Shown here: positions 7,827 to 58,995 of the stretch, one piece after another | Numbering within the stretch: the first letter of the stretch is position 1 | Layout: the number at the start of each line of letters is the position of its first letter | From: Bdellovibrio sp. KM01 | GTDB taxonomy: Bacteria > Bdellovibrionota > Bdellovibrionia > Bdellovibrionales > Bdellovibrionaceae | Reading direction: 5' to 3' | Assembly (NCBI RefSeq): GCF_013752535.1 | Contig: NZ_CP058348.1 | Span: forward strand, 558,001 to 622,000 | Length of the DNA stretch: 64,000 nucleotides | Notes under the pieces: generated by a model | Told to the model about the DNA's origin: nothing | What the model saw: only the letters and a program-made list of their open reading frames with translations | Databases searched by the model: none | Position numbers and translations under genes: made by a program

Positions 7827-10332
7827 TGGTCTGAGTGATCGCATCCATCAAAGTTTTTTTGCGAATAGGCTTCGTCAGGAAGCTCGTATTAGGAATTTGT
7901 TGCGCACGTCTCATGGTTTCTTCCAAAGCATCGGCGGTGACCAATAGAATCGGACGTTGCGGAAGTCCCTGATCTTTTTCAAAGGCCCGCATTTTTTCAG
8001 CAGCTTCAAAACCATCCATCAATGGCATGCGCACATCTAAAACGACAACGTCGCTTGGGTTTGCGATATAAGCTTCCAGAGCTTCTTTGCCGTTTTGCGT
8101 GTATTTGATATTCCAAGGCTTGCCATCAAAATATGCCATGTAAAGTTCTTGATTTCCAACGTCGTCATCAGCCACCAATAAGTTTAAACCATCTGGAATA
8201 CTTTTGCGTGCGGCTTCCACTTTGGGTTTGCTGAGATCGCGGGTTTCAGTGCGGCGGGTGTTCTTGCCATAAAATCCAGTCGTCAGGAAAATATCCGTTA
8301 AAGATAACGGCGAAGAATCCAAAACAGGATCTGTTAGCCCAGGATATTTAACCAGGATCTCGTCTTTTTTGCCCAATAAGATAACGCGTCCGTGCTGGTG
8401 TAGTAATTCCATATCGCTTGCAGCGATATTTCCGGCAGTCGCATCCAGCAGGATCCATTTATTCATCGGCAAAGACGATGGTTTCGAATTACGAATCTCG
8501 CTAATATAATCCAGCTTGGAATAAATGATCGCCGGATGCATGGCGAGGGGTTCAGCTGCCAGTTGCATAATACGATCTTCGGAAATCAAAACAAATTCTT
8601 TGACCTGATCATCAGGGGAGCGGAACGTTTCCACCCAGTTAGTACCATCCAAAACTTCCATATCCAAATCCACGCGGAACAAAGTTCCTTTTTTAGGTGC
8701 GGATTCAACATGCAATCGGCCATTTAATTTGTTAACCAACTCTTTCACGATGGCTAGGCCCAGGCCCACTCCGCCCTCCGAGAAGGCGTAAGAGTTTTCA
8801 ACTTGAAAGAAGGCATCAAAAACTTTGTGAATCTTATCGTCTTGAATACCCACTCCAGTATCCTCGACCTCAAACCGCAGGGTCATCGCATGGCCTGGCA
8901 GCTGCTGAAGTTTACTCACGCGCAGAATGATGTGGCCTTCGTTCGTGTATTTGCAGGCATTGCGCAAAAGATTTAATAGAATCTGGCGAAGGCGGCTTGG
9001 ATCGAAATTCACCGAGGACGGTAAATCAAATGCAAACTGAGAATAAAGTTGCAGATTCTTTTTCGCACAATCTCTACCGGAAATTTTCGCAATATCCGTC
9101 AGGAAGTTAATCAGATGCATGCGCTTCGGTTGAACTTGCAATTCGTTCGTGTCAGCTTTGGCTAGATCTAGTAAATCCTCGATCATAGACAGCAGATGAT
9201 TACCAGAGGAGCGCATGCTGACAAGATAGTCGTGAATCTTTTTGTCGGTATCTTTTTCCTCACAGAGATCCACCATCCCCAGAATCAAATTCAAAGGTGT
9301 ACGGATTTCGTGTGAGATATTTCCCAGGAAGCGGCTTTTGGCAACCAGGGCTTCTTGCAATTCTTGGTGGGCGCGTTCCAGGTCGTGTGTCTTTTCGATA
9401 ACCAGGCGACCCACGCGACGGTTTTGCTGAACCAAGACCCAGAACAAATAGGAAATGATCAAAGTGATCAAGATACTCATGATCCCCGTGATGGTTGAGG
9501 CATTCAGACCCTGAGATTTTTGAAAGTTAAAATGGAAATGAACTTTCAACGTTGTTTGTTGGGGCTCTCCCAAGCGCAATGTTTGCAACAGGCTGTCGTC
9601 ACGGCCAATTTGACGGGATATGTTACCTGCCCGTATTGACTTGGAATTGTTATCCGATGTGATGATCCAGGAATTCTGATTTTTAATGTCTTCAATTTCC
9701 AGGGATTCGCTGGTGCGCAGATCGATCTTTTCAAATAATGAAACCAGCGGAGCCGTAAAGATGAAATAAATGTTTTCACGGCTTCTGGATTGCAGAACAT
9801 AAGTAATCAGAGGAACACCGTTTCGTTCGTGCAAAACGGCCCGGCTGTATTCTTTGTTTTTGATGATTTCTTCAATGCCCTTAATGACCGCAGGGGAGGT
9901 CATAGTCTTGCTCTTAATCTCAGGCACTCCCGAGTTCGGGGTGTTAATGCGTGAAATCAGCTTTAGCTTAGGCGGGGAGGCGTTGCGTTTGCCCGAAATC
10001 TGATAAATCGAAAAGCGCTGAAACACAGTATATCGCAATGATTGGCCCAGAAAGGCCATGTCACGGTAATAGTCAGCAGGACGGCTGCCAATATACTCTT
10101 CATAGGACTGAATTCTTAGAATACTATTTGATAAGAGGAGATCTAAAGATTGAATGATCTCGCGAGAGCGTTTGATGGACTCGGCACGCTGATCGGCTTG
10201 TTCCCGATCTAACATGCGTTTATGGATATAGAACGAAAGAGAGAGGCCGGAAATCAGCGCCAGAACGGGGATCCACAGAAAGAATTTTCTGGCTTTTTTT
10301 AGAATGATTTTAAGGCCACCGTTACGTTTCAT
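7819..10332 (-). CDS. Hybrid sensor histidine kinase with C-terminal receiver
   Basis: I start at the ATG at 10332 (MKRNGG), giving 837 residues. The order is: transmembrane helix (about 17-38), a roughly 230-residue periplasmic sensor of no recognised family, a second helix (about 275-300), a coiled linker, HisKA with the phosphorylated His in NISHEIRTPLN (about 341), HATPase with LLRNACKYTNEG and DTGVGI plus GGVGLGLAIV, a degenerate receiver-like spacer, and a receiver with VVLDVRMPLMDGF (Asp near 765) and TKP. Such kinases pass phosphate through an Hpt protein, and a divergent Hpt gene lies 120 bases away. Confidence 0.93.
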   Translation of the reverse strand: MKRNGGLKIILKKARKFFLWIPVLALISGLSLSFYIHKRMLDREQADQRAESIKRSREIIQSLDLLLSNSILRIQSYEEYIGSRPADYYRDMAFLGQSLRYTVFQRFSIYQISGKRNASPPKLKLISRINTPNSGVPEIKSKTMTSPAVIKGIEEIIKNKEYSRAVLHERNGVPLITYVLQSRSRENIYFIFTAPLVSLFEKIDLRTSESLEIEDIKNQNSWIITSDNNSKSIRAGNISRQIGRDDSLLQTLRLGEPQQTTLKVHFHFNFQKSQGLNASTITGIMSILITLIISYLFWVLVQQNRRVGRLVIEKTHDLERAHQELQEALVAKSRFLGNISHEIRTPLNLILGMVDLCEEKDTDKKIHDYLVSMRSSGNHLLSMIEDLLDLAKADTNELQVQPKRMHLINFLTDIAKISGRDCAKKNLQLYSQFAFDLPSSVNFDPSRLRQILLNLLRNACKYTNEGHIILRVSKLQQLPGHAMTLRFEVEDTGVGIQDDKIHKVFDAFFQVENSYAFSEGGVGLGLAIVKELVNKLNGRLHVESAPKKGTLFRVDLDMEVLDGTNWVETFRSPDDQVKEFVLISEDRIMQLAAEPLAMHPAIIYSKLDYISEIRNSKPSSLPMNKWILLDATAGNIAASDMELLHQHGRVILLGKKDEILVKYPGLTDPVLDSSPLSLTDIFLTTGFYGKNTRRTETRDLSKPKVEAARKSIPDGLNLLVADDDVGNQELYMAYFDGKPWNIKYTQNGKEALEAYIANPSDVVVLDVRMPLMDGFEAAEKMRAFEKDQGLPQRPILLVTADALEETMRRAQQIPNTSFLTKPIRKKTLMDAITQTIK

Positions 10333-21250: not shown

Positions 21251-21477
21251 AAACTTTTTCCTCTGAAACATCTAGTTCATAGATGGGGGCTACGGGCACG
21301 ACTGGGGCCTGCCCTCACGCCGTCGACCTCCGTCGGCGCACGATGCGCGAACCCGCCAAAGGCGGGCGACGGTGAGCCCGGATGGCGTGTCGACAGAGTG
21401 AGGGCGGGACACAGGCGAGACCGTAGCCCCCAGCTATGCCCCGAGGGCCCCGTTCAGAGGGAAAACGTAAAAAGTTT
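21251..21477. repeat. Long nested inverted repeat, copy A of the shared-core hairpin family
   Basis: Fills most of the 480-base gap before 21596. Outer arms AAACTTTTT plus CCTCTGAA (21251-21267) pair with TTCAGAGG and AAAAAGTTT near 21453-21477. CATAG and GGGGGCTACGG (21285-21295) pair with CCGTAGCCCCC (21421-21431) and CTATG. GCCCTCAC (21311-21318) pairs with GTGAGGGC (21398-21405). The core (21322-21394) is bounded by GTCGAC and closes with CCGTCG/CGACGG around two hairpins (GCGCA-CGA-TGCGC and CCCGCC-AAA-GGCGGG). No protein is seen. The core matches, in reverse, the core at 57996-58064. Confidence 0.85.
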
Positions 21478-21595: not shown

Positions 21596-22651
21596 ATGAG
21601 CCTTAAAGACAATAAACTAGAAATTGCAATCATAGCGGTAGCGATCGTTTTGATCGGTGGCGTAGGCAATCTGTTTAAAGCTCCTGTTCAAAGAGCTCTC
21701 CAGACTTCTGAATTAAGCTTCGAGATGATTCGTCCAAAATCAATCTTGGCAGCCCTCTTCGATTTGGGGGGCCGCGAGGTTTCTCGCAGCTATGTGAATC
21801 CATTTGGTAACAAGAAACCGACTGAAGCAGCTAAAACGACTCCAAACACGGAAGACAAAACTAAATCCGCCGCTGCAACAACTAAAACCGCTCAAAAAAA
21901 AGCTGAAGATAAAAAAGACCAAGATAAGAAACCAGAAGTTTCAGTTCGTGTTGTCGATGGCAACCCCACATTCAAAGCGGGTGCAGATGATATATCGACA
22001 GGTAACGGCGCTGGTGGATCTGTAGCAACTGGTGCTGGTGCTGCAGCAAATGATGGTAAAAAAGCCGGAACAGATAAAGACTCGATGACGGCGGCTCAAT
22101 GGCGTAATCTGGTATTGGGTCAACCGACTAAAGAAAACGTGAATAAAATGGTTGTGGCTTACATGGATAAAGAACTTAACGATGCTGAATTCTACGGTAT
22201 CGTGAAAGAGCTTTTGCAAAACAGCAACTCGGAAACTCAAGCTTTGGGTTTGTCAGCAGCGAGTTCATTCTATAGCTCAACAGCATTTAACACGGTGGCA
22301 TCTGGTTACAAATCATATTCGACTGAAAACCAAACGAAGGCGATGGCTTACTTGTTGGGTTTCGCAAATGCAGGTCGCCTAAGCGCTTTGGCTTCTTCAT
22401 TGAGAAGCTCAGACGAAGAAGTGGTTTCTTTGGCAGCAGAAGTTGTGGTTAAGGGCTATAATTCAGCAAAAGAAGGAACAGTTTCCAGCCAAGGGAACCG
22501 TTCACGCGGCGATGCGTTTGAAAATTCACTGAAAAACTACACTCAATTCGTGACGATCTTTAAAGAACTTCAAAGCAGCACTAATTCAGAGATCGCTTCT
22601 TTGGCGGGAACTGCTTTGAGTCAAATTCAATCCGGTGTTGCAACTCTATAA
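21596..22651 (+). CDS. Membrane-anchored protein with helical-repeat C-terminus
   Basis: This is a 351-residue protein with one N-terminal transmembrane helix (about 8-27, uncleaved style), a Lys/Thr/Ala-rich and Gly-rich linker (about 75-165), and a C-terminal alpha-helical domain (about 165-351) whose short helices (ALGLSAASSFYSS, AMAYLLGFANAGRLSALA, VVSLAAEVVVKG, IASLAGTALSQI) look like HEAT-type repeats. No known family. It resembles in build the protein at 62674 (anchor, linker, helical repeats). An AGGAGGG ribosome site precedes the ATG. Confidence 0.8.
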   Translation: MSLKDNKLEIAIIAVAIVLIGGVGNLFKAPVQRALQTSELSFEMIRPKSILAALFDLGGREVSRSYVNPFGNKKPTEAAKTTPNTEDKTKSAAATTKTAQKKAEDKKDQDKKPEVSVRVVDGNPTFKAGADDISTGNGAGGSVATGAGAAANDGKKAGTDKDSMTAAQWRNLVLGQPTKENVNKMVVAYMDKELNDAEFYGIVKELLQNSNSETQALGLSAASSFYSSTAFNTVASGYKSYSTENQTKAMAYLLGFANAGRLSALASSLRSSDEEVVSLAAEVVVKGYNSAKEGTVSSQGNRSRGDAFENSLKNYTQFVTIFKELQSSTNSEIASLAGTALSQIQSGVATL

Positions 22652-57964: not shown

Positions 57965-58096
57965 GCTAAGCCGGGAGGGGTAGACTTTTGCAAACGCGAC
58001 ACGGCGTCGTGCCTCGCCATCGCCGGCTTCGCCGGTTCGCGCTTCCAGCGCCGATGGAGGTCGCTTTTTGCAAAAGTCTACCCCTCCCGGCTTAGC
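57965..58096. repeat. Long inverted repeat, copy D of the shared-core hairpin family
   Basis: A perfect 30-bp arm pair: 57965-57994 with 58067-58096 (starting GCTAAGCCGGGAGGGG). The core 57996-58064 begins GCGACACG and ends GGAGGTCGC, and contains CCATCG/CGATGG closing two hairpins, CCGGC-TTC-GCCGG and GCGC-TTCCA-GCGC, plus CACG-GCGT-CGTG outside them. The core is the same family as the core of copy A (21322-21394) read in reverse. It occupies the gap between the TetR gene and the Cys-repeat gene; no gene is seen. Confidence 0.9.
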
Positions 58097-58742: not shown

Positions 58743-58844
58743 GGCGAGGTCCTTTTGCAAATTAAAAGCCTCGTTAAACTAGCTTATATTTCAGATGAGC
58801 TGCAAACCCTTGTCTAAGAATGTGACAAGCAACATTCAGCGCCA

Positions 58845-58914
58845 CCCAAAAGGTGCCTGCCGGTTTTTGGTAGCTCATGTGCGTCTAGAAAAAAGCGGCA
58901 GGCACCTTTTTGGG
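58845..58914. repeat. Inverted repeat with REP-like arms (element E)
   Basis: CCCAAAAGGTGCCTGCCG (58845-58862) pairs with CGGCAGGCACCTTTTTGGG (58896-58914), one extra T. The loop is 33 bases. Right after it comes GGTGGGTCACTTTTT (58924-58938), similar in style. It is the main feature of the 235-base gap before 58996; a promoter for the phosphatase probably lies in the rest. Confidence 0.85.
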
Positions 58915-58995
58915 GGATTAAAGGTGGGTCACTTTTTCTAAATTGGGGGAAACTTCTGGTTAATGCGGTGCAGGTGTTGGTAAGTCCAACGCCTT

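Follow-up and report, generated by a model that had tools for sequence, protein, structure and literature searches.

Dispersed hairpins of Bdellovibrio with a conserved branched core and locus-specific, self-complementary arms

Introduction

How can a hairpin keep its centre from copy to copy and yet stand on a stem of different DNA at each site? Two such hairpins lie in the window, that is, the whole stretch of 64,000 nt of Bdellovibrio sp. KM01 analyzed here (contig NZ_CP058348.1, positions 558,001 to 622,000). Known dispersed or folded elements are built otherwise. ERIC-like repeats are intergenic, imperfect palindromes of about 100-200 bp that are conserved over their length, and integron attC sites are large hairpins of variable sequence that fold from a single strand, in which the ends are kept and the centre varies. 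The hairpins thus raise the question of a repeat family, in a well-studied predator genus, whose anatomy is opposite to that of REP, ERIC and attC elements. Its orthologous copies are a natural experiment on whether long perfect stems arise via stepwise selection or by template switching in one step. In addition, covariation in such stems may reflect mutation besides selection, which bears on the use of covariation as proof of RNA function.

Results

Two copies of one family in the window

A covariance model search of the window returned exactly two cores, with E = 7e-19 for copy 1 and E = 5e-19 for copy 2 (Table 1). The first-pass annotation had placed them at 21322-21394 and 57996-58064, in each case at most 2 bases off, and had assigned both to one family with covariation in the core, which the model and the double changes described below bear out. 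Folding of both copies was far more stable than that of shuffled sequences (z scores of -7.2 and -10.4 for copies 1 and 2, respectively). The arms of copy 2 form 30 uninterrupted pairs, whereas those of copy 1 are discontinuous, with the paired segments GCCCTCAC/GTGAGGGC, GGGGGCTACGG/CCGTAGCCCCC and CCTCTGAA/TTCAGAGG.

Table 1. Positions of the two hairpins in the window (R1 and R2, model scores)
Feature	Position	Strand	Remarks
Copy 1, conserved branched core	21324..21392	-	R1 100.5 bits, R2 83.2 bits
Copy 1, inner stem	21311..21318	+	GCCCTCAC; partner 21398-21405
Copy 1, inner stem partner	21398..21405	+	GTGAGGGC
Copy 1, middle stem	21285..21295	+	GGGGGCTACGG; perfect in window genome, imperfect in G012
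Copy 1, middle stem partner	21421..21431	+	CCGTAGCCCCC
Copy 1, outer arm	21251..21267	+	AAACTTTTTCCTCTGAA; not found at the element-free site of G022
Copy 1, outer arm partner	21453..21477	+	Homologous sequence at the element-free site of G022 (either native or a remnant)
Copy 2, conserved branched core	57997..58063	+	R1 87 bits, R2 83.8 bits
Copy 2, 5' arm	57965..57994	+	30 bp perfect stem
Copy 2, 3' arm	58067..58096	+	Pairs with 57965-57994

Copy number and distribution

In the window genome (3.96 Mb), 32 copies were found at E < 3e-5 with covariance model R1, which was trained on 27 copies. The family is therefore not limited to the two copies in the window. Searches of the genome with a single core gave 7 places for one core and 30 for the other, some of them weak. 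Copies are present in 22 of the 24 Bdellovibrio species searched, at 3 to 32 each. At the level of the order, 31 of 141 genomes gave matches, as did 30 of 369 in a wider sample of the phylum, and outside Bdellovibrio the family is rare in the phylum. The distant copies, which belong to other families of bacteria, have the identical layout, and three of them (L091, L092 and L093) carry long paired arms.

No match to any of the 4227 Rfam families was obtained in the window at gathering score, and permissive matches stayed at chance level; the c-di-GMP riboswitch of G006, a genome of the same genus, was located at the published merRNA coordinates. Judging by Rfam and the literature that we searched, the repeat family is undescribed. 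The copies are unevenly spread over the chromosome: the quarter around the contig start of the window genome (3.5 Mb to 0.45 Mb) holds only one of the 32, and in HD100 the majority lie between 0.97 and 2.43 Mb.

The core is a branched tip

About 70 nt long, the core folds into a branched tip with a closing stem and three small hairpins. The closing stem is followed by a small hairpin (GCC..GGC) and then by a stem that bears the two other hairpins, linked by GGTTCGCGC. Across 54 diverse copies, 96% of the cells of the alignment were paired, and double changes occurred in 21 of 23 pairs; none of 500 shuffles attained any of the five measures used. Covariation thus supports the consensus structure, and a structure of single-stranded DNA would give the same pattern.

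A role as a sponge for CsrA, with GGA-like loops on the complementary strand, was considered and rejected: CsrA is present, yet the loop sequence alternates between GGA and CGA from copy to copy. One copy of G012 (L153:10204-10271) has its apical loop enlarged by an insertion of about 63 bp, which comprises two small hairpins as well as a GTAG motif and looks like a REP-type sequence.

Arms pair with each other at nearly every locus

Self-complementarity of the arms, first noted for the two window copies, is general: in 118 of 123 copies the arms paired better than 99% of controls, in which arms from different copies were combined. The accompanying claim that the arms are unrelated between copies stands for most of them and fails for a subfamily (L048, L056, L058, L060, L067 and others), whose members have mismatch-rich boxes in common.

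Mismatches within the helices were mainly pyrimidine-pyrimidine (329, against 25 purine-purine, on the strand reading CGACAC...GGTCG), and their spacing peaked at 4 and more weakly at 2. In the five named members of the subfamily, pyrimidine-pyrimidine mismatches recur about every 4 nt along the arms. On the presumed sense strand, A.C mismatches outnumbered G.T mismatches by 110 to 42, which counts against strong selection on the arms at the RNA level.

Both arms change together between genomes

The window genome and G012 are 92.9% identical in the window genes compared and have most sites in common; it should be noted that many of these copies, being orthologues, are not independent of one another. 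Across 24 shared sites, we counted 96 double changes to another Watson-Crick pair and 58 changes confined to a single side. In a small control of 12 terminator-like hairpins there was 1 double change and 6 single ones (Fisher p = 0.016 against the arms). The double changes at the 18 sites with well-aligned arms comprised 45 transitions and 30 transversions (40% transversions), compared to 288 and 303 at 4-fold sites (51% transversions; p = 0.09 for the difference). Given these proportions, a route through G-U pairs alone is a poor explanation. The rate of change in the arms, computed from the 24-site comparison, was 0.18 per site and thus below the 0.24 of 4-fold sites, indicating that the arms drift near neutrally while still paired and in register. 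Hypermutation of the arms was ruled out, as their rate does not exceed that of 4-fold sites.

Between L175/L176 and L173, indels of 1 nt are mirrored across both arms, and in the pairs L041/L129 and L049/L139 the arms are entirely different and pair equally well. When the window genome was compared with G022, the mismatch-rich boxes of L056 and L058 were frozen, whereas the adjoining perfect stems had been replaced. The majority of mismatches also persist between the window genome and G012. Frozen boxes and persisting mismatches argue against template switching, since unlimited mirror copying should erase mismatches.

Some arms mirror the ends of neighbouring genes

At L050, the 3' arm contains a perfect inverted copy of the final 21 nt of the gene upstream (encoding DNQPLK-stop); in G022, a related gene end is found without the element and without the mirror copy. 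Shorter inverted copies of coding ends are present in the 3' arms of L055 (17 nt), L186 (15 nt) and L042 (14 nt). Inverted runs of at least 12 nt from coding ends were thus observed in 4 of 67 copies, against 0.3% of controls, and a long perfect mirror of coding sequence is confined to few copies, which counts against template switching. At L142 (copy at 2073), the neighbouring gene extends with its end into the outer 5' arm, and the mirror is on the opposite side. In a G012 locus (L138, copy at 10016), the mirrored arm is the end of a convergent open frame (NNQPVK-stop) that resembles the end of the left gene (DNQPLK-stop).

The genome comparisons revealed no target duplications and caught no insertion or transposition event. 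At the three clean empty sites examined between the window genome and G012 (L125/L145, L064/L154 and L045/L150), parts of the arms are retained, and from their sequences these sites look like remnants of deletions. Over longer distances site turnover is high, so that spread must happen. Of the mobile hairpin that copies its flanks, as first suggested, the flank copying is supported in part, by the coding ends and the mirrored stem changes, whereas active mobility finds no such support in target duplications or empty sites. Reverse transcriptase as the copying enzyme (retron or group II intron) was rejected because the window genome has no PF00078 match.

Genomic context and transcription

Among 68 single copies, 29 lie between convergent and 7 between divergent genes. 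A gene end within 90 nt was found on the side of the 5' arm in 43 copies and on the side of the 3' arm in 8 (G012 left out; orthologues in this count are not independent); in the window genome itself this bias is weak. Gene order alone showed no consistent bias and gave no fixed strand relative to transcription, although the gene ends within 90 nt do show a sense bias.

Most copies are single. Close inverted pairs, complete or degenerate, occur at about 20 places in the genus, some of them orthologous, always in the order plus then minus and roughly 120-720 bp apart. Their spacers are unrelated between sites and have no common gene, and we therefore rejected a composite transposon in which paired copies would enclose a cargo. 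Twelve Y1_Tnp genes are present in the window genome, none of them adjoining a copy, and the inverted repeats of the Y1_Tnp genes examined differ from the hairpin family.

Of the 12 HD100 copies, the one at 1,339,148 lies inside a mapped RNA, the attack-phase RNA APsRNA6 (PMC3627812). This RNA starts just 5' of an approximately 90-aa open frame, reads through the plus copy, and ends near a second, degenerate inverted copy. The first-pass alternative of a structured RNA has thereby gained one direct support.

Discussion

The anatomy sets this family apart from the systems it most resembles. Like ERIC repeats, the copies are intergenic imperfect palindromes, but they are conserved in the centre only. 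Compared to attC sites the anatomy is reversed, the centre being conserved and the ends variable, just as the first-pass annotation had described it, and the copies are scattered instead of arrayed with cassettes. Intrinsic terminators combine a GC hairpin with a direct U run; here, no consistent T run followed the stems on inspection, and APsRNA6 is read through. REP, REPIN and BIME elements with their RAYT transposases (PMC3116915, PMC3733652) resemble our family as palindromes dispersed between genes, with compensatory changes in the spacer hairpin and with Y1 transposases encoded in the genome; inverted pairs occur in both, although most copies here are single. However, REPs measure 20-40 bp and have their conserved sequence at the unit ends, whereas here a centre of about 70 nt is conserved and the stems are long and locus-specific; moreover, no Y1 gene carries the element.

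The explanation we prefer, and to which we assign about the same weight as to all others taken together, is that a structured tip, conserved between copies, frequently located close to the 3' end of a gene and transcribed in at least one case, nucleates hairpin-primed template switching that makes and renews the stems from local DNA. The elements would be dispersed, mostly intergenic hairpins in which the branched tip of about 70 nt sits on a stem of adjacent DNA. During replication, the tip would act as a fold-back point at which the growing strand anneals to itself and takes the newly synthesized arm as its template, so that one arm comes to mirror the other. Mutations and small indels of one arm would in this way be copied into the other, and the mirror could extend into the neighbouring gene. 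Selection would maintain the tip, most likely for a role as structured RNA within the 3' portion of mRNAs. Mirrored multi-base changes, stem extension and inverted coding ends are the expected trace of hairpin-primed template switching (PMC8794818), which is why we prefer this cause for the mirrored arms. The same work, in which template switching was proposed for rRNA and microRNA stems with multi-base mirrored changes and stem extension, is a published precedent for the mutation mechanism and counts in its favour. It concerns a mutation process in existing RNA genes, whereas in Bdellovibrio a dispersed repeat appears to seed the process at many loci and to capture coding ends. The direction in which the arms are copied is something we infer from changes that are not polarized on a tree. 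A further step, which we regard as doubtful, would be an element class whose fold-back core is the sole heritable sequence, with self-primed DNA synthesis making a perfect inverted repeat of any adjacent DNA, even of coding ends, so that the stem of each copy would derive from its host locus.

The main rival explanation is a structured RNA element of the usual kind within 3' untranslated regions, with stems held by selection for pairing alone and compensated one side at a time. The strong covariation of the core, the gene ends on the sense side (43 versus 8), the copy within a transcribed attack-phase RNA and arms that change no faster than 4-fold sites all agree with it. Nevertheless, double changes by transversion at almost the frequency of neutral sites, mirrored indels, inverted coding ends with their stop codons, and wobble pairs that show no preference for the sense strand are difficult to reconcile with such compensation, and we consider this explanation possible but rather unlikely. 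The inverted pairs could also be read as the replicating unit of a non-autonomous transposon of the REP/REPIN kind that a Y1 (HUH) transposase mobilizes in single-stranded form, with the single copies as remnants. About 20 close pairs in the genus, all plus then minus, 12 Y1_Tnp genes in the window genome, intergenic copies that mostly avoid divergent promoters, and site turnover over longer distances would fit. Against this, the Y1 genes have no flanking copy and, where examined, other inverted repeats, the pair spacers are unrelated between sites, no excision to a clean site was seen (the empty sites between the window genome and G012 look like deletions), and plus-minus pairs would also result wherever two convergent genes both had a copy in sense orientation at the 3' side. 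We therefore judge the transposon improbable.

Long, mostly perfect, locus-specific arms might finally suggest guides or spacers selected against foreign or prey sequence, in the manner of dsRNA-like silencing. A search of 50,697 records of phages and 72,556 of plasmids, however, gave no good match to the hairpin of copy 2; off-site matches in 1 Mb of window-genome and related DNA were runs of at most 16 nt, orthologous remnants excepted; and the arms drift near neutrally. This makes such a function highly improbable.

Other features near the two copies

A second long hairpin (GGTGCCTGCCGGTTTTTGG...GGCAGGCACC) is located at 58842-58916 of the window, and its arm matches inverted repeats on either side of a Y1 transposase gene at another locus of this genome (L165). 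The intergenic site that corresponds to copy 1 in G023 (L101:1824-2616) contains an insertion of about 790 bp with 39-nt inverted repeats (95% complementary). The insertion resembles a Y1-type (RAYT-like) gene, and G006 is without it. Between copy 1 and the gene at 21596, the segment 21478-21595 contains a GTCTCA...TGAGAC-like motif that is retained in many species.
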